Below are positions 40,486-52,428 of a stretch of 64,000 nucleotides of DNA, piece after piece (the first letter of the stretch is position 1; each line of letters opens with the position of its first letter). Position numbers and translations under genes: made by a program. Below the pieces are notes generated by a model. It had not been told where the DNA came from. It saw only the letters and a list, made by a program, of their open reading frames with translations, and ran no database searches. The stretch covers positions 2,786,168 to 2,850,167 of the forward strand of contig LT827128.1 in the NCBI GenBank assembly GCA_900170005.1, read 5' to 3'. This DNA comes from Gordonibacter massiliensis (ex Traore et al. 2017). GTDB lineage: Bacteria > Actinomycetota > Coriobacteriia > Coriobacteriales > Eggerthellaceae.

Positions 40486-40545
40486 GCGCGTCCGGCTCCA
40501 TGCATGTCCGGCCCGTGCGCGTCCGGCCCGTGCGTGTCCGGCATC
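40486..40545. repeat. 15-bp tandem repeat (TGCGCGTCCGGCCCG)
   Basis: Four units of 15 bp starting at 40486, 40501, 40516 and 40531 vary at a few positions; a diverged fifth lies near 40454. The array fills part of the gap between the histidine kinase and PASTA genes. It is readable as an ORF in one frame, but no ribosome-binding site supports that. Confidence 0.65.
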
Positions 40546-40656
40546 GTTCGCGCCCAGTCGCGTGCTGTGCCGGTCTTGCGTCCGCGGAGGTATTTTGATG
40601 TGCATGGAGGCGTATAGTCCGCGTTCAAGGAGTTCTCGAACGATAGGAGGGCGAAC

Positions 40657-41661
40657 ATGCTGACGGTAAACAAGGCGATGCATTCGCCGAAGCGCGGTTG
40701 GCTCGTTGCGGCATGCGCGGCGCTGCTCGCGTGCGGGCTGCTGGTCGGCCTCGTAGGATGCAGCTGCGGCAGCGACCAGAACCAGGGCGGCAAGCAGGAA
40801 ACCGAGAAAAAAGCCGAGGATACGAAGATGCCACCGAACGTGGTGGGCATGACGAAGGACGATGCGGCCCGCGTCATCGCCGACGCCGGCTTCAAGGTGG
40901 GCACCGTCACCGAGGAGGAGAGCGACAAGGTGGCCATCGGCATGGTGGTGAGCCAGAAGCCAGGCTCGGGCACCGAGGCGAAGCCCGGCTCGACGATCGA
41001 CTACGTGGTGTCGAAGGGCGTGAAAAAAACGCCCGCACAGGTGGCCGTACCGAACCTTGCGGGCATGACGCAAACGCAGGCTGAAGACGCCCTCGCGAAG
41101 GCCAAGCTCGTGTCGAAAGCCGAAGACCCGGTGTACGCCGACGGTGTGGAGCCCGGCAAGATATTCAAGCAGTCCGTCGCCCCCGACACGAAGGTCGAGG
41201 AAGGCACGGCGGTGAGCTTCGTGGCGGCGCTGGGCAAAGAGGTCGTAGCCGTGCCGAACGTGGCGAACATGGCGAAGGACGCGGCCATCAAAGCGCTGAC
41301 GAGCGCTTCGTTCAACGTCGACATTGTTGAGATGTACAGCTCGTCGGTGGCCGCCGGCAACGTGATCGGGCAGAACCCCAACCCGAAGATCCAGTGCGTG
41401 AAGGGCACCACGGTGACGCTCTCCATCTCGAAGGGTGCCGCGCCCGCTCCGAAGGAGCAGGTGGCCATGCCCGACTTCATGACGCTGTCTGTCGAGCAGG
41501 CGGAAGCCGTGTGCTCGAATGCCGGCCTGAAATGCGCGTTCACGGGTGCCGACAGCGGCACGGTGGTGGCCCAAAGCATCGTGGCCGGCACGAAGGTCGA
41601 CCGCGGCACCACGGTAACGCTCACGATAGAGGAGCTGCCGACCCTGGCGACGGAGGGGTAG
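40657..41661 (+). CDS. PASTA-repeat lipoprotein
   Basis: The 334-residue protein has a signal peptide with lipobox GLVGC, a Lys/Glu-rich linker, and four PASTA domains (about 57-122, 127-193, 195-262, 268-330), recognisable from PNVVGMTKDDAARVIADAGF, VPNLAGMTQTQAEDALAKA, VPNVANMAKDAAIKALTSA and MPDFMTLSVEQAEAVCSNAG. PASTA domains bind muropeptides or lipid II in cell-wall kinases and penicillin-binding proteins, but no kinase or transpeptidase domain is attached here. AGGAGGG lies upstream of the ATG. A stand-alone wall-sensing or scaffold role is inferred. Confidence 0.88.
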   Translation: MLTVNKAMHSPKRGWLVAACAALLACGLLVGLVGCSCGSDQNQGGKQETEKKAEDTKMPPNVVGMTKDDAARVIADAGFKVGTVTEEESDKVAIGMVVSQKPGSGTEAKPGSTIDYVVSKGVKKTPAQVAVPNLAGMTQTQAEDALAKAKLVSKAEDPVYADGVEPGKIFKQSVAPDTKVEEGTAVSFVAALGKEVVAVPNVANMAKDAAIKALTSASFNVDIVEMYSSSVAAGNVIGQNPNPKIQCVKGTTVTLSISKGAAPAPKEQVAMPDFMTLSVEQAEAVCSNAGLKCAFTGADSGTVVAQSIVAGTKVDRGTTVTLTIEELPTLATEG

Positions 41662-41687
41662 GCGCGCAAGCATAGCATGTTTCCGAA

Positions 41688-41719
41688 GGGCCTGCGCTCA
41701 CGATGCGCGGGCCCTTTTT
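41688..41719 (+). terminator. Terminator of the PASTA gene
   Basis: GGGCCTGCGC/GCGCGGGCCC stem (one G-U-type pair) followed by TTTTTG. Confidence 0.75.
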
Positions 41720-41730
41720 GCGTGGAGCGC

Positions 41731-41796
41731 GGAACACTGTCGGCCCAAAAGTACGGAATTCGTCTCGAAAACGTGTTTTTGGGCCGACAGTGTTCC
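41731..41796. repeat. ACTGTCGGCCCAAAA palindromic repeat, copy 1
   Basis: GGAACACTGTCGGCCCAAAA at the left and its reverse complement at the right enclose CGGAATTCGTCTCGAAAACG. The same outer arms and a closely related core, in reverse orientation, recur at 50031-50089. Confidence 0.8.
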
Positions 41797-41884
41797 GCGT
41801 TTTATGGCGGGAGACGCGCAACAGGGAACATTGTCGAAAAAAGCTGATTGCTATGATCCGTCTCGTCTCCTATATGCTTATGAC

Positions 41885-41925
41885 TATTAGTTGATATTGT
41901 CTAATAATAAAATATGTCTTACAAT
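41885..41925 (+). promoter_or_regulatory. Promoter and operator-like palindrome before the radical SAM operon
   Basis: TTGTCT (41897-41902), 17-bp spacer and TACAAT (41920-41925) form a plausible promoter. An inverted repeat, TATTAG-N10-CTAATA (41885-41906), overlaps the -35 region, the usual position for repressor control. The stretch 41840-41940 is AT-rich compared with its surroundings. Confidence 0.5.
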
Positions 41926-41988
41926 TGCGTAACGCTTATAAATGGCGCCGTGGAGCCGTCGCGGTCGCCACGGCAAGAGGAGGTAGTT

Positions 41989-42999
41989 ATGCAATCGTTC
42001 GACCAGCGGATATACGAGATCGTAGAAAAGGGCCTCGAGGGCCATGGTCTTGCCGAAGAAGAGGTTCTCGCGCTTTACGAGGTTGATGAAACTAGCAAGG
42101 AAGCCTCGCTTGTCCGCTGGGCCGGTCAGGAGTTGTCGATGTTGGCTTCTGACGGAACGGCTGAAATCCATGCGCAGATCGGTTTGAACTCTACGGTGTG
42201 CCCCAAGAATTGCAAATTCTGTTCGTTTGCCGCATGCAACAACGTGCGCAAGGGCAAGTTCGAAGTGCCCAAGGATGATGTGCTCGAATACGCGAAGATG
42301 TACATGGAAGAGGGTGCGAACCTGTTGCTCATGCTGACAACCGCCAGCTACAGCTTCAACAAGCTCGTCGATATGGTGGGCTCGGTGCGCGAAGTTATTC
42401 CGGTTGACATGCCGCTGTTGGTGAACACCGATGATATGGAGCTCGACCAATGCAGGGAACTCAAGGCTGCAGGCGCGAACGGTGCCTACCATGCCGTGCG
42501 CATGCGAGAGGGCGAGGACACGGAAATCCCCGTCGAAAAGCGTTTCGAGACGTTTGCAAATTTGCGCGAAGCCGGCCTCTCGCTTTCCACGTGCGTGGAG
42601 CCGGTGGGTCCCGAAAACACTCCCGAAGAACTGACCGAAGCCACCATGCGCTGCATTGCCACGAACCCGGTATCCGCCGGCGTGGGCAAGCGCATAGGCG
42701 TTCCCGGCACGCTGGTGTACGATCGCGGCATGCTCACCGACGTGGCGAATGCCAACATGGTGGCCATCTACCGTTTGGCCACCGGCCGCGAGCTGCGTTT
42801 GAACTGCTCGGCCAACACCGTGATGACCGCCGCGTCCGGCGCGAATCTAGCCTGGGCGGAGGTGGGCACGAATCCGCGCGACACCGTGGAGCGCACCGAG
42901 CACGGCGGCCGCGGCAGCAATATCGACCAGCTGCGCAAGATGTTCGCCGCCTCCGGTTGGAGCGTGCTCGACGGCCCCTCGAAGGGTTGGATGCGGTAA
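41989..42999 (+). CDS. BioB-like radical SAM enzyme of unknown substrate
   Basis: The 336-residue protein has the radical SAM cluster motif CPKNCKFC (Cys71, 75, 78) at the mouth of a TIM barrel. The later segments (NTDDMELDQCRELKAAGANG, YHAVRMREGEDTEIP, FANLREAGLSLSTCVEPVGP, RLNCSANTVMTAASGANLAW) follow the order seen in biotin synthase, HydE and PylB. It lacks the extra [2Fe-2S] pattern I would expect of true BioB, and no biotin genes are nearby. GAGGAGG precedes the ATG. Its stop directly abuts the GTG of an ABC permease, so it heads an operon with a NitT/TauT-type importer. Confidence 0.8.
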   Translation: MQSFDQRIYEIVEKGLEGHGLAEEEVLALYEVDETSKEASLVRWAGQELSMLASDGTAEIHAQIGLNSTVCPKNCKFCSFAACNNVRKGKFEVPKDDVLEYAKMYMEEGANLLLMLTTASYSFNKLVDMVGSVREVIPVDMPLLVNTDDMELDQCRELKAAGANGAYHAVRMREGEDTEIPVEKRFETFANLREAGLSLSTCVEPVGPENTPEELTEATMRCIATNPVSAGVGKRIGVPGTLVYDRGMLTDVANANMVAIYRLATGRELRLNCSANTVMTAASGANLAWAEVGTNPRDTVERTEHGGRGSNIDQLRKMFAASGWSVLDGPSKGWMR

Positions 43000-44031
43000 G
43001 TGGCCGCCGCCCTAGAAAAAAGCCTGCATGAACGGCAACGCACAGCGCCTACGCGTAAAATTGAAAAGCGGCGTTTGGTCTCTGGGCGCGAATTCGTGAA
43101 GATGCTGCTGCCGGTGGCCGCCATCTGCATCGCCTATGGTGCGACGAACGGGTTGCCGAACGTGTACCCCGTCGATTATGTCGAAAGCTATTACCCGCTG
43201 TTTCTTCTGGTGATGCTGGGCATGTATGCTGCATGTATGGCAGCGGCCTGCTTCATGCCTAAATTGCGACGCTACGTCGTCCACTATACGTATCTGATCG
43301 CTGCGGTGTTTTTGCTTGTGGAAGTGCTGGACGTGCTCACGCTCAAGACGGGATACCTGCTGTTGCCGTTCGCGCCAAGCCCCGACCGTATTTTGGAGGC
43401 GGTGCCGAAGAACCTCGAAGCCTATGCCTCGAACCTGGCTGCTTCGATGATGCTGCTGGGAGAAGGGGTGGTTATAGGCTTGGTGACGGGCTTCGTAACA
43501 GGGTTGCTCATGGGTTGGTCGAAAATTGCGAACTACTGGTTCGCGCCGTTGCTCAAAGTAATAGGTCCTGTGCCGTCGGCTGCATGGCTCCCTATCGCCG
43601 TGGTGCTCATGCCCTCGGCGCATCTGGCAGGCGTGTTTCTCATATCGGTGGCCATCTGGTTCCCTTTGTCGCTCATGCTGTCGGGGGCCATCCGCTCGAC
43701 GGACAGACGCAAGATCGAGGCGGCACGCGTTATGGGAGCGAGCGAGCCTTACATCCTTTTCCACGTCGCCCTGCCAGCTGCGGTCCCCGATATCTTCACG
43801 GCCCTGTTCATGGGCTTGTCGTCCAGCTTTGGCGCGCTCATCATATCCGAGCAGCTGGGCGTGAAAGCCGGTTTAGGCTGGTACATCAACTGGGCCAGCC
43901 AGTGGGGCGAATACTACAAGGTGTTCGCGTCGGTGGGCATATTCATCATCATCTTCTACGTCCTCATCAACGTGCTGTTCAAGATTCGCGATCACGTGAT
44001 GACGTGGCAGAAGTCCGTGGTGAGGTGGTGA
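43000..44031 (+). CDS. ABC importer permease (NitT/TauT/SsuC type)
   Basis: The 343-residue protein has an extra N-terminal region with three hydrophobic segments (about 35-110), then the standard six-helix permease core of the SsuC/TauC family. The EAA loop reads EAARVMGASEPYILFHVALP. The GTG start directly follows the radical SAM stop, implying coupling. Partner of the ATPase at 44036 and the binding protein at 44907. Confidence 0.88.
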   Translation: MAAALEKSLHERQRTAPTRKIEKRRLVSGREFVKMLLPVAAICIAYGATNGLPNVYPVDYVESYYPLFLLVMLGMYAACMAAACFMPKLRRYVVHYTYLIAAVFLLVEVLDVLTLKTGYLLLPFAPSPDRILEAVPKNLEAYASNLAASMMLLGEGVVIGLVTGFVTGLLMGWSKIANYWFAPLLKVIGPVPSAAWLPIAVVLMPSAHLAGVFLISVAIWFPLSLMLSGAIRSTDRRKIEAARVMGASEPYILFHVALPAAVPDIFTALFMGLSSSFGALIISEQLGVKAGLGWYINWASQWGEYYKVFASVGIFIIIFYVLINVLFKIRDHVMTWQKSVVRW

Positions 44032-44035
44032 CGGC

Positions 44036-44857
44036 ATGGGTAGGGGAAAGCGCATAGATCCCCGGCCGGAACTGCCGCTGTTCGCTTCGTCGGGCAAGCA
44101 TGAACTGGTGGCCGAGCACGTGACTCAGACGTTCCTCGATGAGAACGGTAGCGAGGTGTGGGCGCTCGACGACTTCTCGCTCACCGTGTCCGGATCCGAG
44201 ATAGTGGGTATCATCGGCCCCTCGGGCTGCGGAAAGTCCACGTTCCTTCGCCTGGTGGTGGGATTGGACGAACCCTTGTCAGGCGCGCTGTCGTTCGACG
44301 GTGAAACCATCAACGGCCCGTCGGTGGCGCGTTCCATGGTGTTTCAGAACGCGAACCTGTTCGAGTGGCTTACGGTGGAAGAAAACATTGCGTTCGGCTT
44401 GCATGCCACGCACACCTACGACAAAGGCAAGTACAAGATCCCCCGCCTTATCGAGATGATGGGCCTGGGTGGGTTCGAGCGGGCGTATCCGCCTCAGATA
44501 TCCGGTGGCATGGCAAGCCGCTGCGCGCTTGCTCGATCCTTCGTGCTGAACCCGTCGCTCATCTGCTTCGACGAGCCGCTGTCGGCGCTCGACGCTTTCA
44601 CGCGCGCCGCTTTGCAGGACGAGATCTTGGCCATGCAGACTATAGCTCATACTTCCATGATCTTGGTGACGCACGATATCGAAGAAGCCGTGTATCTGTG
44701 CGATCGCGTGGTGGTCATGACACCGCGCCCGGGACGTACGAAGGGCGAGCTGACCATCGATCTGCCCCACCCTCGTGATCGGGTCTCCCCCGAATTCGTA
44801 AACAGGCGCAGGCAGCTGCTCGCGATGCTCGATGATTCGGAATCGGTTTCGGTATAA
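44036..44857 (+). CDS. ABC importer ATPase (NitT/TauT/SsuB type)
   Basis: The 273-residue ATPase has Walker A GPSGCGKST, Q-loop VFQNANLFEWLTVEEN, a signature reading ISGGMASR in place of LSGGQ, Walker B LICFDEPLSALD, and switch His in LVTHDIEEAVYL. The N-terminus carries about 25 extra residues. It starts 4 bp after the permease stop. Confidence 0.9.
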   Translation: MGRGKRIDPRPELPLFASSGKHELVAEHVTQTFLDENGSEVWALDDFSLTVSGSEIVGIIGPSGCGKSTFLRLVVGLDEPLSGALSFDGETINGPSVARSMVFQNANLFEWLTVEENIAFGLHATHTYDKGKYKIPRLIEMMGLGGFERAYPPQISGGMASRCALARSFVLNPSLICFDEPLSALDAFTRAALQDEILAMQTIAHTSMILVTHDIEEAVYLCDRVVVMTPRPGRTKGELTIDLPHPRDRVSPEFVNRRRQLLAMLDDSESVSV

Positions 44858-44906
44858 AGAGCCTCAGACCACTTTATCGGTTGCGTATAGAGAGATAGGG
44901 AAGGGT

Positions 44907-45974
44907 ATGAACATGAATCTGACCAGAAGAAACTTCGTGAAGCTGGGTGGAGTTGCCATGGGTGCTGCCGCATTGGGGTCAGGGTTGCTTTCGGGCTGTA
45001 GCAGCCAGGCGACGAATGCAGGGGGCGGTTCCGGATCGTCTGAAGGCGGAAAAGCCGGAAACCATGTGGTTTTGGGCTATTGGGGCGGCACGTGCGAAGC
45101 GCCCATTTACATTGGGCTGGAAAAAGGTTATTTCAAGGATGCCGGTCTTGATCCCGAGCCGTTGCTCATCACCTCCGACGTAACAGCGCTCATGGCCAAC
45201 GACAAGTTGGACTGCTTCGAGCTGACACCTGACAAGTTCAAGCCCATGGAGCAGGGCTTGGAGCTGGCCATCATCGACTCTTTGCATGTTGGCTGCATCC
45301 AGGGCGCCGCCTCGGCTGCCTCGGGCATCAAGACTGTCGAAGACCTTGAGGGTAAAAAAGTGGCCGCCGCCATGGGGTCCATCCCCCAAATACAGATTGC
45401 CTCGCAGATGGTGTTGGCCGGCAAGGATCCCGGAAAAGTGGAGTGGCTCACGTATCCGGCCGCGCAGCTTGAACAGGCTATGAACGCTGGCGAGGTGGAT
45501 GCGTTTGCCCAATACGATCCGTGGGCGGATATCGCCGTGGCCAACGGCGCGACGAAGTTCTTCTCCAACACGTTTGACGAGGGTCTCAAAGATTATCTGT
45601 GCTGCTTTGTGGGCATGTCGACGAAAACGCTCAAGGCACGTCCCGAGATCGGGCCGAAGTTGTCCGAGGGCTTTGCCAAAGCCGCTGATTTCCTGAACAG
45701 CAATCCCGAAGAAGCTGCCGAGATCATTGTCGAGGCTGGCTACGTGCCCGTCAACACCGATGCGGGATTCACGAAAGACATCATGTTGGAAGAAATCAAG
45801 GCATATCGCTGGAGTTCGGGCGACCGCCAGCTTATCGACGACAGCTTCCACGAGATATGGATGCAGATCAACCGTGCCGGAGCTATGGAGGACGCACCGA
45901 CCGACCCGGCCGAGCTAAGCAAGTACATCGACGAGACGCTGTATAGCAAGATGGTGAGCTACCAGGGCAAGTAG
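44907..45974 (+). CDS. Tat-type lipoprotein binding protein (NMT1/SsuA family)
   Basis: The 355-residue protein has a twin-arginine leader (LTRRNFVKLGGVAMGAAALG) and lipobox GLLSGC, then a two-lobed binding domain. Features of the NMT1/SsuA family are APIYIGLEKGYFKDAGLDPE at the start, TVEDLEGKKVAAAMGS in the middle, and AQYDPWADIA. Two extra cysteines (WGGTCEAP and LHVGCIQG) lie where the ligand is usually bound. Ligands in this family include sulfonates, nitrate, thiamine precursors and aromatic acids; none is predicted with confidence. GGGAAGGG precedes the ATG. Confidence 0.88.
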   Translation: MNMNLTRRNFVKLGGVAMGAAALGSGLLSGCSSQATNAGGGSGSSEGGKAGNHVVLGYWGGTCEAPIYIGLEKGYFKDAGLDPEPLLITSDVTALMANDKLDCFELTPDKFKPMEQGLELAIIDSLHVGCIQGAASAASGIKTVEDLEGKKVAAAMGSIPQIQIASQMVLAGKDPGKVEWLTYPAAQLEQAMNAGEVDAFAQYDPWADIAVANGATKFFSNTFDEGLKDYLCCFVGMSTKTLKARPEIGPKLSEGFAKAADFLNSNPEEAAEIIVEAGYVPVNTDAGFTKDIMLEEIKAYRWSSGDRQLIDDSFHEIWMQINRAGAMEDAPTDPAELSKYIDETLYSKMVSYQGK

Positions 45975-45976
45975 TC

Positions 45977-47182
45977 ATGGGCTCCCTTATTCGACACAGT
46001 CTGCGCATGCGTCGCGTGCTCACCGCTTCCGTCATGCTGGCGGTTGCGGTGAGCGTCATGGCGCTGTTCGCGCTGGGGTTAACGTACGGCGGCGTACAGC
46101 AGGGGGTGCGGGCTTCGGCCGAGCGCGGCGGCGCGCAGGTTATGGTGGTGCCCCGCGATGCAGCGGCCGACGTGTCCGATACGGCGCTGCTGTTCACGGG
46201 CGCTCCTGCGCCCATCTATCTGCCAACATCGACGGCGCGAGACATTGAAGAGATACCTGGTGTGGAACGGGCGACCCCTCAGTTCTTTAGCCAGACGCTT
46301 AATGAGAGCTGTTGTTCCACAGGGGGTGCAACGCGTCTCGTCGGCATGGATTTCGCGAAAGATTGGACGATCCAGCCTTTTTCGGGGCGCGATCTGTCTG
46401 CCGGTTTGTCCGATGACGAGGTCATCGTGGGGGCGGATGTCGGCGGCGACGTGGGCGGGCGGCTGTCGTTGCTGGGCAGCGTGTTCACCATTGTGGAGAA
46501 ACTCGAGCCGAGCGGCGCCGACCTCGATGACTGTCTGCTGCTGGATATCGATGTGGCGCGCGGATTGTCGGCGGAAAACCTGGGGCTTTCCCACTTGTGG
46601 GAGAAGTACGGCAGCCCGGCCGATCTCGTGTCGTGCGTGCTGGTCGATTTGGACGGTGACGTCGAAGCGAGCATCGTGCTCAACCGCATCAACGCGTTGG
46701 ACGGCGTGCAGGGCATTCAGCGTTCGGACGTGGTCGCCTCGTCGCAGAAACAGCTGGAAGCGGTGTTTCTCATCCTGTTGGGCGCAGGTGTGCTCATGCT
46801 GGCATCTACGTTGGTGCAGCTGTTCGCGCGCTTCTACTCGTGCGTATGGGAGCGCAAAAGCGAGCTGGCTCTCTACCGGGCCATGGGCGCGAGCAAAGGC
46901 CAGATAAGGTCGCTCATCGGCGGGGAGGTTTCCGTGATCGTGGGCGTGGGATTGGTGTTGGGGTTGGCTTGCGGAGCCGGGCTGTACGAATTGCTGGTGG
47001 GCATGTTGCAGGACGGTTCGGCTTTCCCGTTCATCCCGCTTGACACGGGGGCGGTTGTCGGGTTGTCGGCGGCTATCGTGCTTGCGTTCGCGCTGCTGTC
47101 GTTGGCTGCTATCGCGGCGCCGCTCGCGCAGATCGGGCGGCTCGATCCGTCGTTGGCCATGCAGCAGGGGGATATCGATTAA
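45977..47182 (+). CDS. FtsX/MacB-type ABC permease with SCC motif
   Basis: The 401-residue protein has TM1 (about 16-36), a large extracytoplasmic domain (about 40-250) and three TM helices at the C-terminus (about 255-280, 310-335, 350-380), the FtsX/LolCE plan. The extracytoplasmic domain contains a vicinal cysteine pair, NESCCSTGG (Cys112-113), followed by RLVGMDFAKDW. A Cys pair in this position could bind metal or form a redox disulfide. It starts 2 bp after the binding-protein gene and 1 bp before its ATPase gene. Confidence 0.82.
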   Translation: MGSLIRHSLRMRRVLTASVMLAVAVSVMALFALGLTYGGVQQGVRASAERGGAQVMVVPRDAAADVSDTALLFTGAPAPIYLPTSTARDIEEIPGVERATPQFFSQTLNESCCSTGGATRLVGMDFAKDWTIQPFSGRDLSAGLSDDEVIVGADVGGDVGGRLSLLGSVFTIVEKLEPSGADLDDCLLLDIDVARGLSAENLGLSHLWEKYGSPADLVSCVLVDLDGDVEASIVLNRINALDGVQGIQRSDVVASSQKQLEAVFLILLGAGVLMLASTLVQLFARFYSCVWERKSELALYRAMGASKGQIRSLIGGEVSVIVGVGLVLGLACGAGLYELLVGMLQDGSAFPFIPLDTGAVVGLSAAIVLAFALLSLAAIAAPLAQIGRLDPSLAMQQGDID

Positions 47183-47183
47183 C

Positions 47184-47843
47184 ATGAGCATGCTGGAAGT
47201 GCGGAACCTGGGCAAGTCCTACGACGGCAACGTCGTCTTGGAGAACGTGTCGTTCACAGCGGAGCCGGGCCAGTCTATCGCGTTCGTATCGCCCTCCGGG
47301 TCGGGCAAGTCAACGCTGCTGTCCATGCTGGGGCTGTTGCTGTCTTCCACGACCGGCACCGTGGTCGTGGACGGGCAGGACAGCGACGCGCTGGGAGACA
47401 AAGAGCTGTCCCGGCTGCGGCGCGAGACGTTCGGCTTCGTGTTCCAGCACACGCAGCTCGTGGGCTCGCTGCGCGCCATCGAGAACGTCACGGCGCCGGC
47501 CAACTTCGCCGGACGCCTACCGTTCGATGCGCGTGAGCGCGCCGAACGGCTGTTGGGCAGCTTGGGATTGTCCGACCGCCTGCTGCACTTTCCCTATCAG
47601 TTGAGCATCGGTCAGAAACGCCGCGTGTCGGTTGCCCGCGCACTGCTGCTGGACCCTCCCATCGTTATAGCGGACGAGCCCACGAACGATCTCGACGCCG
47701 CGAGCTCCTCCAGCGTGGCCGACACGTTGTTCGAGCGGACGCGCAACGGTGGTATCCTGTTGTTCGCCACGCATGACCGAGAGTTGGCGTCGCGCGCCAC
47801 GCGCGTCATGCATTTGGAGGGCAAGACGTTCGTCGAGGGGTAG
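47184..47843 (+). CDS. ABC ATPase of the FtsX/LolD type
   Basis: The 219-residue ATPase has Walker A SPSGSGKST, Q-loop FVFQHTQLVGSLRAIEN, Walker B IVIADEPTNDLD, and His switch LFATHDREL. The signature is LSIGQKRR instead of LSGGQ. Size and motifs fit LolD/MacB-type ATPases, which drive export or lipoprotein/substrate extraction without a classic import reaction. It pairs with the permease just upstream. Confidence 0.88.
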   Translation: MSMLEVRNLGKSYDGNVVLENVSFTAEPGQSIAFVSPSGSGKSTLLSMLGLLLSSTTGTVVVDGQDSDALGDKELSRLRRETFGFVFQHTQLVGSLRAIENVTAPANFAGRLPFDARERAERLLGSLGLSDRLLHFPYQLSIGQKRRVSVARALLLDPPIVIADEPTNDLDAASSSSVADTLFERTRNGGILLFATHDRELASRATRVMHLEGKTFVEG

Positions 47844-47861
47844 AAGGGCTGGAAGCGGCGG

Positions 47862-49094
47862 TTGGCAAAGGGTTTCGATCGGGGCGTGTACCGCGCGGTT
47901 CTGCGGGTGAGGGGGGCCTACGCGTTCGACGCGGGCGGGTTCCTCATGCGCATCTACGCCTACATGGCCACCATCGGGTCCATATCCATGCTCACGCTGG
48001 CCGGGTACTCGTTCTTCACGGCGGGCACCATCTCCTCGACCATCGCGTTGGCCACGTTCTTCATCTCGCCGCGCGTTTCGAAGCTTGTCGACGAGAAGGG
48101 GCAGCACGCCGTGGTTCCCTGGGCGGCGGCCATCGCGCTTGCGGGCCTCACGCTCATGCTCACGACGGTGAGCTTCGGCGGGCCGACGGCGCTCTGCTAC
48201 GTTGCTGCCCTGCTCATGGGCTTCATCCCGAATGCGCAAGCCCTCACGCGCGCACGGTGGACCTACCTTGTGCGCACGGGCCGGTTGGGAAGCGATGCTC
48301 CCACGCTGAAGACGGTGTTCTCCTACGAGGGCGTCATCGACGACATCGCGTTCATGATCGGCCCCGCCGCCTCCATCGCGCTGGCGGCGGCGCTGTTCCC
48401 GGCGGCGGGCATGCTGGGAGGCGGGGTTTGCTTCGTCGTGGGCACGTGCGTGCTCTCCCTTTCGCGTTCGACCGAGCCCCAGGCCGGATGGGTGGCCGAG
48501 GCGAGCGAGGGCCCTCGTCGCAAGAGTATCATCGTCACTTCGTCCACCGTGCGCATCCTGTTCGCGCTCATGTTCTTCCTGGGGGCGTTCTACGGGGTGT
48601 TCGACACGGCCACGGTCGCGCTCGCCGAGGACGTGGGCAATCCCTCCGCCGCCAGTTTCATCCTCATCGTGGCGGCGTGCGTGTCCATCGCCTCCGGGCT
48701 CGTGTTCGGCATGGTCCGCCTAGCCCTGCCCCAGTACGCGCAGCTGGTGTTGACGGGCACGCTCGTGGGATGCGCTTACGGAGCCATGGTGTTCATCGAC
48801 TCCATCGAGGCGCTGTTCGTGGTTTCCACGGTGGCGGCGCTGTTCTACGCGCCCTTCCTCATCACGGCGAACGGCGCGTGCGAGCAGATGGTGCCGGGGG
48901 AGCGCCTGACGGAGGCCATCACGTGGCTGAACTCGGGCAGCATCTGCGGTCTGGCTTTCGGGCCCACGCTGGGCGGCGTCATTATCGACGAGCTGGGCAC
49001 CACGGCCAGCTTCGACTTCGGCGCGGTGCTGGCCATCATGATTCCCGTCATCGCGTTCGCGTGCCTTCCCATCCTGAAGCGCCGCAGAAAGTGA
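47862..49094 (+). CDS. Major facilitator superfamily transporter
   Basis: The 410-residue protein has about 12 membrane segments in two blocks separated by a basic cytoplasmic loop (SEGPRRKSIIVTSSTVR). Loops such as RARWTYLVRTGRLGSDAPTL lie between helices 4 and 5. The proposed TTG start at 47862 has GGAAGCGG upstream; the next in-frame ATG would remove part of TM1. It follows the LolD-type ATPase by 18 bp, in the same direction, and may be the last gene of the radical SAM operon. Substrate unknown. Confidence 0.8.
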   Translation: MAKGFDRGVYRAVLRVRGAYAFDAGGFLMRIYAYMATIGSISMLTLAGYSFFTAGTISSTIALATFFISPRVSKLVDEKGQHAVVPWAAAIALAGLTLMLTTVSFGGPTALCYVAALLMGFIPNAQALTRARWTYLVRTGRLGSDAPTLKTVFSYEGVIDDIAFMIGPAASIALAAALFPAAGMLGGGVCFVVGTCVLSLSRSTEPQAGWVAEASEGPRRKSIIVTSSTVRILFALMFFLGAFYGVFDTATVALAEDVGNPSAASFILIVAACVSIASGLVFGMVRLALPQYAQLVLTGTLVGCAYGAMVFIDSIEALFVVSTVAALFYAPFLITANGACEQMVPGERLTEAITWLNSGSICGLAFGPTLGGVIIDELGTTASFDFGAVLAIMIPVIAFACLPILKRRRK

Positions 49095-49117
49095 GACGGC
49101 GAAGCTCCAGACGAATC

Positions 49118-49168
49118 GTCGCCTGAAACGGTTGGTTTCGGAGCAATTTCCGACCGTTTCAGGCGACG
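49118..49168. terminator. Bidirectional terminator-like palindrome
   Basis: Perfect 16-bp arms (CGTCGCCTGAAACGGT and its complement) with further pairing inside. It sits between the convergent MFS gene and DUF4418-like gene. No T-runs. Confidence 0.65.
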
Positions 49169-49238
49169 ACGGCCCGCAAAGGCGCGCTCGGGGTTCGTTT
49201 GAGGTTGGCAGGGGCTTGCCGGATGGGCGCATCGGCCG

Positions 49239-49679
49239 CTACAGCTGCATCTTCGGCAGCTCGGCGGCTTTCGGGTCGGCCTTCGCCAGCTGCACGATGC
49301 CCACCACGATGGCCGCGCCGGCGGCTATCCACAGGGAGAGGGCCGTTTGGTGGCAGTGCATGTCGGCGCTGCCGCACAGGCCGATGCCGGCGGGGGTGGT
49401 GAGCAGCACGGCCACGACGGCCGTGGCGATGGAGGCGACGGCGGCGAAGCGGCGCCCCTCCGTCGTGGATCCGGCCAGCGCGAGCAGCGACGTCACCGCG
49501 CCGATGATGCCCACGAACGTGGTCGCCACGAACGTCCAATGGCACTTCATGGGCACGGTTCCGCCCGCTGCCGTCTCCACCGGCTTCGAGCAGCCGCCCA
49601 TGAACGCCGATACGGCCACTATCGCCAGCATGGCAACGAGCCCCACCGCCGCCAGTATCGTCCATGCCCGCTTGCTCAT
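49239..49679 (-). CDS. DUF4418-like membrane protein with Cys/His pairs
   Basis: The 146-residue protein has four membrane helices. The extracytoplasmic loops carry CH motifs: MKCHWTF after the first helix and SADMHCHQTA between helices three and four, plus GLCGS. This fits my recollection of DUF4418, whose members sit beside FtsX-type ABC genes in anaerobes. An FMGGC sequence at the end of TM1 is lipobox-like. It faces the radical SAM/ABC operon from the opposite strand. The Cys/His arrangement suggests metal or thiol chemistry at the membrane surface. GAGGGGAT precedes the ATG. Confidence 0.7.
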   Translation of the reverse strand: MSKRAWTILAAVGLVAMLAIVAVSAFMGGCSKPVETAAGGTVPMKCHWTFVATTFVGIIGAVTSLLALAGSTTEGRRFAAVASIATAVVAVLLTTPAGIGLCGSADMHCHQTALSLWIAAGAAIVVGIVQLAKADPKAAELPKMQL

Positions 49680-49896
49680 GATGGTATCCCCTCTCCAGTA
49701 TTATTCTTGAACATAGTTATTATCATACCGCAAGTATTTGATATAAGCCATGGTCAAAGGTGAAAACGCAGCGCGAAAATCAGGCTGCGGGCGAAACGCC
49801 TCGACGTCTCGGAGGGGTAGGCGCATGATCCGTAACCTATTGCCGGAAGGGGCTGTATCAAAAGGATCGGCGAGGCACGCCCGTGCTGGTCGAACC

Positions 49897-49976
49897 GTAG
49901 GGCAAGGGCTCTGCCCTTGCCGTCGACTTGCGGAAACGTTGCTGGTTGAGCGGCAAGGGCAGAGCCCTTGCCCTAC
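49897..49976. repeat. GTAGGGCAAGGGCTCTGCCC repeat, copy 2 (composite)
   Basis: 49897-49940 repeats 27624-27667 with one base change. 49951-49976 is the same core inverted (CGGCAAGGGCAGAGCCCTTG...), giving a head-to-head pair. This is one of two repeat elements in the 628-bp gap 49680-50307, where I see no gene. Confidence 0.8.
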
Positions 49977-50030
49977 AAGAGCGTCGAAATGTGGCTTTTG
50001 ATGCAGCACCTTCCGCGTGAAGCGGGGGTG

Positions 50031-50089
50031 CATTGTCGGCCCAAAAACGCGTTTTCGAAGCGAATTCCGCGTTTTTGGGCCGACAGTGT
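50031..50089. repeat. ACTGTCGGCCCAAAA palindromic repeat, copy 2
   Basis: Arms TTGTCGGCCCAAAAACGCG and CGCGTTTTTGGGCCGACA enclose TTTTCGAAGCGAATTC, the reverse complement of the core of 41731-41796 with a few changes. Confidence 0.8.
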
Positions 50090-50307
50090 AACGCGGGGCG
50101 GTTCCGGGGATAGACCGGCGGGGCTCCAGGTCGGTTTCCGCTCTGCCGCAACAAACAGTTCTCTTGGCCGAAAACTCTCCGAAACAATTCGCCGTTAGTT
50201 TGATGAGAGGAAGTTGACCATGTGTTTCAAGCGACGTCATGCTATCGTATCGCATGTTATGAACGAATCACGGGCGAGCGGCAGGCCATGAGGTCGGGGA
50301 GCACCGC

Positions 50308-52428
50308 ATGCAGGCGATGAGTGAGGAGCAAAGCCCTATGGCGAAAGTATCGGAGATCTACGGTTCTATGGTGTTCAATGAGCACACGATGCAGGAGCGC
50401 CTGCCCTCTGCAACGTACAAGAGCCTGCTCAAGACCATCAAAGAAGGCAAGCCGCTCGACATCGAAGTGGCCAACGTCGTGGCGCACGCCATGAAGGAAT
50501 GGGCCATCGAGAAGGGCGCCACCCACTACACGCACTGGTTCCAGCCGCTCACCGGCATCACGTCGGAGAAGCACGACAGCTTCCTCGATCCCTGCGGCGA
50601 CGGCCGCGCCATCATGAGCTTCTCCGGCAAGGAGCTCATCCAGGGCGAGCCCGACGCGTCCAGCTTCCCCTCCGGCGGCCTGCGCGCCACGTTCGAGGCC
50701 CGCGGCTACACCGCATGGGACCCCACTTCCTACGCGTTCATCAAAGACGAGGTGCTGTGCATCCCCACCGCCTTCTGCTCCTACACCGGCGAGGCGCTGG
50801 ACAAGAAAACGCCGCTGCTGCGCTCCATGAGCGCCATCGACGAGCAGGCCAAGCGCGTGCTGGCGCTGTTCGGCGAGAAGCCCCTGCGCGTGACGACCAC
50901 CGTGGGCGCCGAGCAGGAGTACTTCCTCATCTCCGAGAAGGACTACGCGCAGCGCCAGGACCTCATCATGACGGGCCGTACGCTGTTCGGCTACGCGCCG
51001 TGCAAGGGCCAGGAGCTCGAGGAGCACTACTTCGGCGCCATCCGCCCCACGGTGAACGAGTTCATGAAGGAACTCGACGACGAGCTGTGGAAGCTGGGCG
51101 TGTCCGCCAAGACGAAGCACAACGAGGTGGCCCCCGCGCAGCACGAGCTGGCGCCCATCTTCGCCAACAGCAACCGCGGCATCGACGAGAACCTGCTCAC
51201 CATGGAGAAGATGCGCTTGCTGGCCAGCCACTACGGTCTGGTGTGCCTGCACCACGAGAAGCCGTTCGAGGGCATCAACGGCTCCGGCAAGCATAACAAC
51301 TGGTCCATCTCCACCGGCAAGACGAACCTGCTGGAGCCGGGCGAGAGCCCCATGGACAACCTGCGCTTCCTCGTGTTCCTCACGGGCGTGATCCAGGCGG
51401 TCGACGACTACCAGGAGCTGCTGCGCATGTCTGTAGCCACTGCTGGCAACGACCACCGCTTGGGCGCCAACGAGGCGCCGCCGGCCATCATATCCATGTT
51501 CCTGGGCGACGAGCTGGGCGCCATCGTGGACGCGCTCATCGACGACCACGAGTACACGTCCGCCGAGAAGGTGGCTATGGACCTGGGCGTATCCGTGCTG
51601 CCGAACTTCCTGCGCGACAACACCGACCGCAACCGCACGAGCCCCTTCGCGTTCACGGGCAACAAGTTCGAGTTCCGCATGCCGGGCTCGGCCGTGAACC
51701 TGTCGGACTGCAACATGATTCTGAACACGGCCATGGCGAAGAGCCTGAAGGAATTCGCCGACGCCATGGAGGGCAAGGCGGGCGAGGAGTTCGAGGCCGC
51801 CGCCATCGCCTACATCAAGGACATGCTCACCAAGCACCAGCGCATCATCTTCAACGGCAACGGCTATTCCGACGAATGGCCGGTGGAGGCGGAGCGCCGC
51901 GGGCTGGCGAACCATCGCACCACGGCCGACGCGCTGCCCTGCTTCGTCGACCCGAAGAGCATCGCGCTGTTCGAGGAGTTCGGCGTGCTGTCCGAGCCCG
52001 AGGTGCGCAGCCGCTACGAGGTGAAGCTCGAGAAGTACAACAAGCTCGTCAACATCGAGGCCCGCACGATGAAGCGCATGGTGCGCCGCGCCTACCTGCC
52101 CGCCATCAACGACTACGCCGCCGAGGTGGCCAGCAACATCACCACCGTCAAGGCCGCTTCCGCCGGTGCCGACATGGGCCAGCAGGAGGACTTGCTGAAG
52201 AAGCTGCTGGCCGGCATCAAGGAGATCAACGAGCAGCTGATCGCCCTCGACGAGAACCACCACGCCTGCGTCGCCCTCGAAGACGAGCAGGAACAGGCCA
52301 ACATGAACGCCCACACCATCCTGCCCATCATGGACAAGCTGCGCGCCGCCGTCGACCAAATGGAGATCGTCACCGACCGCGACCACTGGCCCGTCCCCAC
52401 ATACAACGACATGCTGTTCTACGTGTAG
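50308..52428 (+). CDS. glnN: Type III glutamine synthetase
   Basis: The enzyme makes glutamine from glutamate, ammonia and ATP. The 706-residue size and sequence ([20 protein letters not shown] at the start, [65 protein letters not shown]) are those of GSIII, common in anaerobes and much larger than GSI (about 470). The start may be ATG 50308 (GGGGAG upstream) or ATG 50338 (GAGGAG farther upstream). The gene stands alone and ends in a perfect hairpin. Confidence 0.93.

Follow-up and report, generated by a model that had tools for sequence, protein, structure and literature searches.

The described C-As lyase, ArsI, is a dioxygenase. We know of no arsenosugar gene set that has an importer or an FtsX pair as a member. 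A 2023 study describes the mechanism by which dimethylarsenate is demethylated as still unclear (PMC10579292). An organometal theme has been proposed for the selenocysteine-assisted organometal (SAO) system (Haft and Gwadz 2023), as far as it is summarized in PMC13188914 and PMC10418091, and the type 1 mlp gene cluster comprises two Mlps, a corrinoid protein, and an activase (PMC10418091). The LipS1/LipS2 lipoyl synthases, which are BioB-like, annotated as biotin synthases, and often encoded by paired radical SAM (rSAM) genes, carry the rSAM motif at positions 27/31/34 or 39/43/46 (PMC9585515). In Thi5, the CCCF stretch is a reported iron-binding motif and is required for activity (PMC10512395).

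Here we describe a locus of Gordonibacter massiliensis that combines an rSAM enzyme with a NitT/TauT-type ABC importer, an FtsX-LolD pair, and a DUF4418 membrane protein. It lies in a window of 64,000 nucleotides (the whole stretch of DNA analyzed), taken from a genome of 3.95 Mb that is assembled as a single contig. By the features tested, the operon is neither a biotin nor a thiamin operon; judged from sequence, the rSAM-importer-FtsX-LolD-DUF4418 set is conserved but unnamed in gut bacteria related to Gordonibacter.

Organization of the locus

The compact unit consists of seven plus-strand genes (41989-49094) and a facing DUF4418 gene (Table 1). All eight genes exist as the preliminary description had listed them, and the tight spacing that it reported from the rSAM gene to the MFS gene holds: the gaps are 0 (rSAM-permease), 4, 49 (before the binding-protein gene), 2, 1, and 18 bp (LolD-MFS), that is, 0-18 bp save for the 49 bp. 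The DUF4418 gene lies 144 bp from the MFS stop. The operon start, formerly put at about 41930, was moved to 41989, where the rSAM start is preceded by a ribosome-binding site, GAGGAGGT, and the product is 336 aa long; 41914 is only the start of the longest rSAM ORF. We infer a single transcript from the rSAM gene to the MFS gene. A scan for promoters and terminators gave counts not clearly above chance, and this includes the candidate promoters ahead of the operon. Neither a TPP riboswitch nor one of another class was found in 40500-50400, where the Rfam matches were sub-threshold miRNA models on palindromes.

Table 1. Features of the locus, in window coordinates. SBP, substrate-binding protein. 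Scores are given against the cut-off of the curated model.
Feature	Position	Strand	Characteristics
BioB/PylB/HydE-fold rSAM enzyme	41989..42999	+	C71xxxC75xxC78
NitT/TauT-type ABC importer permease	43000..44031	+	top curated model SaoP, 86 vs cut-off 295
Importer ATPase	44036..44857	+	top curated model SaoA, 200 vs cut-off 360; ISGGM signature
Lipoprotein SBP	44907..45974	+	RR, lipobox Cys31, NMT1/Thi5 fold
FtsX/MacB-type permease	45977..47182	+	invariant C112-C113, outside domain
LolD-type ATPase	47184..47843	+	LSIGQ signature, Walker A SPSGSGKS
MFS transporter	47862..49094	+	set member in Gordonibacter only
DUF4418 membrane protein	49239..49679	-	invariant C30, C46-H47, C102, C109; H110 12/13
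Weak sigma-70-like promoter candidates	41880..41925	+	upstream of operon

The rSAM enzyme

We compared the rSAM enzyme with curated models of its relatives. It scored 37.9 bits against the BioB model TIGR00433 (cut-off 225), 28.1 against PylB (348), 24.4 against MqnE (435), and 21.2 against HydE (255). The scores for PylB, HydE, MqnE, CofH, and ThiH spanned 15-28 bits, with cut-offs of at least 254, and none passed. In the AF2 model of the enzyme (pLDDT 94.3), the Z scores to BioB, PylB, and HydE were tied at 33.2, 32.3, and 32.2, with 14-17% identity, and both the predicted fold and the CxxxCxxC motif place it in the BioB/PylB/HydE structural group. BioB, PylB, HydE, and ThiH resemble the enzyme in fold (Z 29-33) and motif, whereas its scores fall far short of all the curated cut-offs.

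In a profile alignment to E. coli BioB (1r30), whose [2Fe-2S] cluster ligands we take to be C97, C128, and C188, the rSAM enzyme has no cysteine at any of these three auxiliary-cluster positions. The nearest cysteine to the C188 column is C202, two residues past it. These absent ligands, together with the TIGR00433 score, ruled out an ordinary biotin synthase, the identity that the preliminary description had named as fatal to its proposal of an undescribed system. Across 50 diverse homologues, H168 is invariant and C202 and C273 are near-invariant, beyond C71/C75/C78. This conservation may point to a second metal site or to a substrate thiolate. By these comparisons, the enzyme is a member of an unnamed clade of BioB/PylB/HydE-fold enzymes.

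Distribution of the gene set

A tree of 93 rSAM homologues placed the window enzyme in a clade of 17-18 rows (SH-aLRT 98-99), here called clade A, from Coriobacteriia-type genomes and one Syntrophomonas. A large sister clade holds enzymes of Desulfobacterota, Nitrospirota, Chlorobiota, Thermoplasmatota, and others. The family is patchy: it was detected in 16 of 60 Eggerthellaceae genomes at E up to 1e-3, or in 15 after a weak match (G018, 21%) was dropped, and among 296 sampled Actinomycetota one rSAM genome besides the window's own was found at E up to 1e-30.

An importer adjoins the clade-A rSAM gene in 16 of about 20 loci, so the pairing of importer and enzyme pointed out in the preliminary description recurs. 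In 13 of them the importer is of the window's NitT/TauT type (the window and L026, L042, L043, L045, L046, L047, L048, L050, L052, L055, L057, and L108), usually with FtsX, LolD, and DUF4418 genes alongside in varying order and strand; in the other three (L053, L054, L058) it is a non-homologous PRK11622-type importer. At least two of the four loci without an importer sit on very short contigs. The strongest argument for the rSAM enzyme acting on an imported compound is that an importer stays beside it even where that importer is of another type.

Besides its recurrence across Coriobacteriia, the full set was found in a single Syntrophomonas genome (UBA5288), and is thus conserved beyond close relatives, as the preliminary description had required of a genuine system. 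A search for the gene order was positive in Coriobacteriia and Syntrophomonas but returned only sister-clade rSAM genes, in other operons, from Desulfobacterota and Nitrospirota. The arrangement goes beyond chance, as orthologues repeat it in further genera and also beyond the family. The Syntrophomonas locus, L057, is on a MAG contig whose G+C of 0.45 is normal for the genus and whose second rSAM falls mostly among those of other Bacillota; neither gives a sign of mis-binning, although some contamination of the MAGs is conceivable. Genes of the relatives were called with a simple ORF-finding script, and contig borders cut several of the loci short; since in MAG loci the script missed or displaced some FtsX/LolD frames and one importer ATPase, absences of single genes carry little weight.

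The closest records with the set or the site are two from Gordonibacter. G. pamelaeae has an rSAM at 90% and an identical gene order. Gordonibacter sp. 28C has the same chromosomal site, with flanks about 93-95% identical, in which a single rSAM gene of the sister clade stands in place of window positions 41731-47693; the MFS gene, DUF4418, and a remnant of the LolD 3' end are retained. The remnant indicates that LolD, and probably the full set, was present at this site in the 28C ancestor. The swap fits related rSAM enzymes serving the same membrane partners, which may instead be mere leftovers.

Conserved residues of the importer and the membrane proteins

In the SBP, C63, H127, C130, C232, and C233 are invariant in all 13 clade-A copies. 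A control search of the relatives for the NMT1 family gave 24 matches: the four of the window SBP's family all had the full Cys/His set, compared with none of the 20 other NMT1 proteins of Coriobacteriia, seven of which had the CC at that position, alone or nearly so. The CC column is common to SaoX and to a second importer of the window's genome, and it aligns with the CCCF stretch (CCCFC) of Thi5. The SBP model is confident in its mature part, with thiamin-bound 4nmy as the closest solved fold, followed by Thi5 and ThiY. As read from secondary structure and knowledge of the fold, the five Cys/His residues are expected in loops and strands lining the cleft.

The Cys-Cys motif and the CH pairs first noticed in the bare sequence were confirmed as Cys112-Cys113 in the outside domain of FtsX, invariant in all 12 copies covering that stretch, and as C46-H47 and C109-H110 in DUF4418, where C30, C46-H47, C102, and C109 are kept in 13/13. 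The suggested tie to metal(loid) or thiol handling fits these invariant Cys/His residues of the SBP, FtsX, and DUF4418, which lie outside or in the membrane; the conserved cysteines could instead be structural or hold another metal. Of the two ATPase signatures that had been called altered, LSIGQ is indeed unusual in a LolD-type protein; 13 of the 15 listed LolD rows have it (as LSVGQ in two), the rows including some repeats and one remnant. The other, ISGGM, is ordinary: (I/V/L)SGGM is a normal signature of NitT/TauT ATPases and is common to all orthologues examined. The MFS gene, initially counted with the set, belongs to it in Gordonibacter only.

Arsenic genes

ArsM-like genes recur near clade-A rSAM genes. 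One overlaps the rSAM gene in L026, and others lie 64 bp (L053), 2.7 kb (L045), and about 9-10 kb (L043, L108) from it, the L043 copy being fused to a SufS-like desulfurase. The encoded proteins retain the expected cysteines, except that the L026 copy is without the third. ArsS (TIGR04167) is found 0.6 kb upstream of the rSAM gene in L057, 7.7 kb from it in L046, and 9.1 kb from it in L054. No arsenic gene was found near the rSAM gene in the clade-A loci L042, L048, L050, L052, and L055. ArsM and ArsS are likewise absent from the eight genes of the locus, the nearest ArsS in the genome being about 0.6 Mb off. Three ArsS-type genes lie elsewhere in this genome: two are in long frames, of which one also contains an ArsM match, and the third has an in-frame TGA. 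The bare-sequence description had missed both the ArsM/ArsS neighbors and the SAO likeness of the importer.

Across the 60 Eggerthellaceae genomes, with kinship ignored, full-length ArsS was present in 12/15 rSAM genomes compared with 13/45 others (p 7e-4), ArsM in 12/15 compared with 9/45 (p 5e-5), and either of them in 14/15 compared with 13/45 (p 1.3e-5); neither was detected in the rSAM genome G030. Two ArsS calls (G004, G050), at 290-293, fall short of the cut-off of 300, and when it is applied strictly the counts for ArsS were 10/15 and 13/45 (p 0.011, kinship again ignored). ArsS was found in 9/10 clade-A genomes checked, once as a contig-edge fragment. Both ArsS and ArsM are common in Eggerthellaceae, and the genomes are not independent. 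In the sister clade, about 20/53 loci contain TIGR04282/TIGR04283, which NCBI names arsenosugar biosynthesis, a label that is itself inferred. ArsS is rare among the sister-clade genomes (about 4/18), which makes the arsenic link weak for that clade.

Proposed function and alternative explanations

We tentatively propose that a thiophilic organometalloid is imported and processed by the operon. The compound would most likely be an organoarsenical, a reading to which we give somewhat less than even weight; that the ligand is a thiophilic metal(loid) compound of some kind seems probable. From residue conservation and fold, the SBP would capture the compound at its Cys/His-lined cleft, and the importer, as its family suggests, would carry it inside. 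The rSAM enzyme, assigned to its class by sequence and fold, may then alter or cleave the compound via a 5'-deoxyadenosyl radical. FtsX-LolD, DUF4418, and in Gordonibacter also the MFS protein could use vicinal thiols at the membrane to handle the product or to expel it, FtsX-LolD presumably by export. ArsM and ArsS may act on the same pool, in cis in the relatives and in trans in Gordonibacter, whose ArsS-type genes lie elsewhere. Their repeated company suggests an oxygen-free organoarsenic pathway as a testable guess. Because ArsI is a dioxygenase and the demethylation of dimethylarsenate is mechanistically unclear, we also considered that the rSAM enzyme cleaves C-As bonds, or else degrades arsenosugars or methylarsenicals, without O2, as an anaerobic counterpart of ArsI with a dedicated organoarsenical importer; this specific version is unlikely.

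The same scheme could serve another thiophilic ligand, such as an organomercurial, an organoselenium compound, or a complex of iron, copper, or nickel, as has been proposed for SAO. SaoA and SaoP are the top importer models, SaoX is among the best for the SBP and has the CC in common, Thi5 binds iron at the aligned position (PMC10512395), and one neighbor scores strongly on a selenocysteine-lyase/cysteine-desulfurase model. However, all SAO cut-offs were missed, SAO loci have a different gene content (see below), and the specific neighbors found are arsenic genes, which leaves this a minority reading that we still take seriously. Salvage of a vitamin-like or metal-free molecule, for example thiamin pyrimidine, by a ThiXYZ-like importer with structural cysteines would agree with the nearest folds of the SBP; the absence of a riboswitch, the absence of thiamin genes from the set and its repeated neighbors, and the absence of the CC from two complete thiamin-like control proteins make it very improbable.

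Other doubts concern the company that the genes keep. In Eggerthellaceae, ArsM/ArsS genes and rSAM genes may simply accumulate in common variable regions, in which case the arsenic association would be that of a bystander: ArsS is over the cut-off in 23/60 genomes, everything is patchily distributed, and the cassette was replaced in Gordonibacter sp. 28C. Against a bystander effect, which we regard as improbable, stand the arsenic genes that directly adjoin or overlap the rSAM gene in several lineages, Syntrophomonas among them, and the 14/15 against 13/45 above. The rSAM-importer pair and FtsX-LolD-DUF4418 might also be separate modules, the latter for envelope or lipoprotein maintenance with a disulfide. 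L053, L054, and L058 have the rSAM and importer genes with FtsX absent from the stretch examined, and DUF4418 occurs in 5/52 genomes without a clade-A rSAM; against this, it occurs in 6/8 clade-A genomes (p 2e-4, 60 genomes), and the genes form one packed operon in several genera. We regard a split into two modules as very improbable.

With its wide spread in anaerobes, its thiol-rich importer, and its arsenic-methylation neighbors, the rSAM family is a candidate for organoarsenic turnover in gut and sediments. Should some other metal(loid) prove to be bound, the genes would nonetheless make up an unnamed system for uptake and radical processing in gut bacteria, with a list of diagnostic residues at hand.

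Comparison with known systems

The type 1 mlp cluster was rejected on gene content, none of its core genes being among the eight of the locus. LipS1/LipS2 were considered for their paired BioB-like genes and wide distribution; on comparison with the published positions, the window rSAM motif, at 71/75/78, and the extra cysteines, of which only C202 and C273 are near-invariant where LipS has three auxiliary-cluster cysteines, appear not to match. No lipoate genes were noticed near the rSAM gene.

ThiXYZ/Thi5 (NMT1) proteins share the fold of the SBP and the aligned CC, but the window set is without a thiamin context or riboswitch, and its conserved residues differ. The ArsM/ArsS arsenosugar sets (NF008823, TIGR04167, TIGR04282, TIGR04283) occur in anaerobes and are recurrent neighbors of the rSAM family; ArsS belongs to a different rSAM family from the window enzyme.

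SAO is nearest in its importer. The window's NitT/TauT importer is closest to the SaoA, SaoP, and SaoX curated models, and the two systems share a Cys-Cys in the binding protein and, as far as the SAO summaries go, the organometal theme. All scores are below the cut-offs (Table 1, and 60 against 300 for SaoX), and no SaoB/C/T/L-type companions were found among the eight proteins of the locus. In six SAO loci of Bacillota (L164-L169), the companion genes are different ones, with no rSAM, FtsX-LolD, or DUF4418 gene among them, and one Syntrophomonas genome contains both SAO and the window-type set. SAO membership was therefore rejected on scores and gene content, and the importer is best described as SAO-like, in a gene set distinct from SAO.

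Replacement of most of the set in a related strain and repeats around the set

Comparison of the locus of Gordonibacter sp. 28C with positions 41731-47693 of the window showed that one radical SAM (rSAM) gene of the sister clade replaces the block from the rSAM gene to most of LolD, and that a LolD remnant is still present beside the replaced block. In the window, the whole set is bracketed by two copies of a palindromic repeat. The half-site of this repeat has only six exact matches genome-wide, three of which lie here, and its expectation in the window with one mismatch is 0.03. The repeat was not detected at a clade A locus (L042) or at that of Gordonibacter sp. 28C (L089). A long near-perfect hairpin lies between DUF4418 and the next gene, and its likeness to miRNA models is one of shape only.

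Positions of features (C1, contig of the same genome; L106 and L054, other loci)
Feature	Position	Sequence or remark
Palindromic repeat, copy 1	41738-41789	TGTCGGCCCAAAA...TTTTTGGGCCGACA
Palindromic repeat, copy 2	50034-50085	TGTCGGCCCAAAA...TTTTTGGGCCGACA
Hairpin	49895-49978	GTAGGGCAAGGGCTCTGCCCTTGCC...
Second rSAM gene (L030)	C1:1834709-1835689	37% identical
ArsS-type gene	C1:3429300-3430208	
ArsS-type gene	C1:279313-280197	
ArsS-type gene	C1:3698343-3699236	
Fusion protein	L106:12823-15318	SufS-like desulfurase + ArsM
Fusion protein	L054:11234-13474	long N-terminal region, then SufS-like desulfurase

Related genes and systems

A second rSAM gene of the genome (L030) is divergent to another NitT/TauT importer, the binding protein of which also harbors Cys-Cys. 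Sister-clade rSAM genes (e.g., L070, L102, and L105) form compact operons with TIGR04282 and TIGR04283 in many anaerobic phyla, sometimes together with a MerA-like or rhodanese-like protein; a further protein cluster in these operons, which had no curated match, was read as TVP38-like. Among the three ArsS-type genes of the genome, one has an in-frame TGA, which possibly encodes selenocysteine, one has an ArsM match within the same frame, and one has a long open frame (684 aa). Two fusion proteins at other loci contain a SufS-like desulfurase. One Syntrophomonas genome (G347, locus L057; contigs C42 and C99) harbors both a window-type set and a locus of the selenocysteine-assisted organometal (SAO) system.
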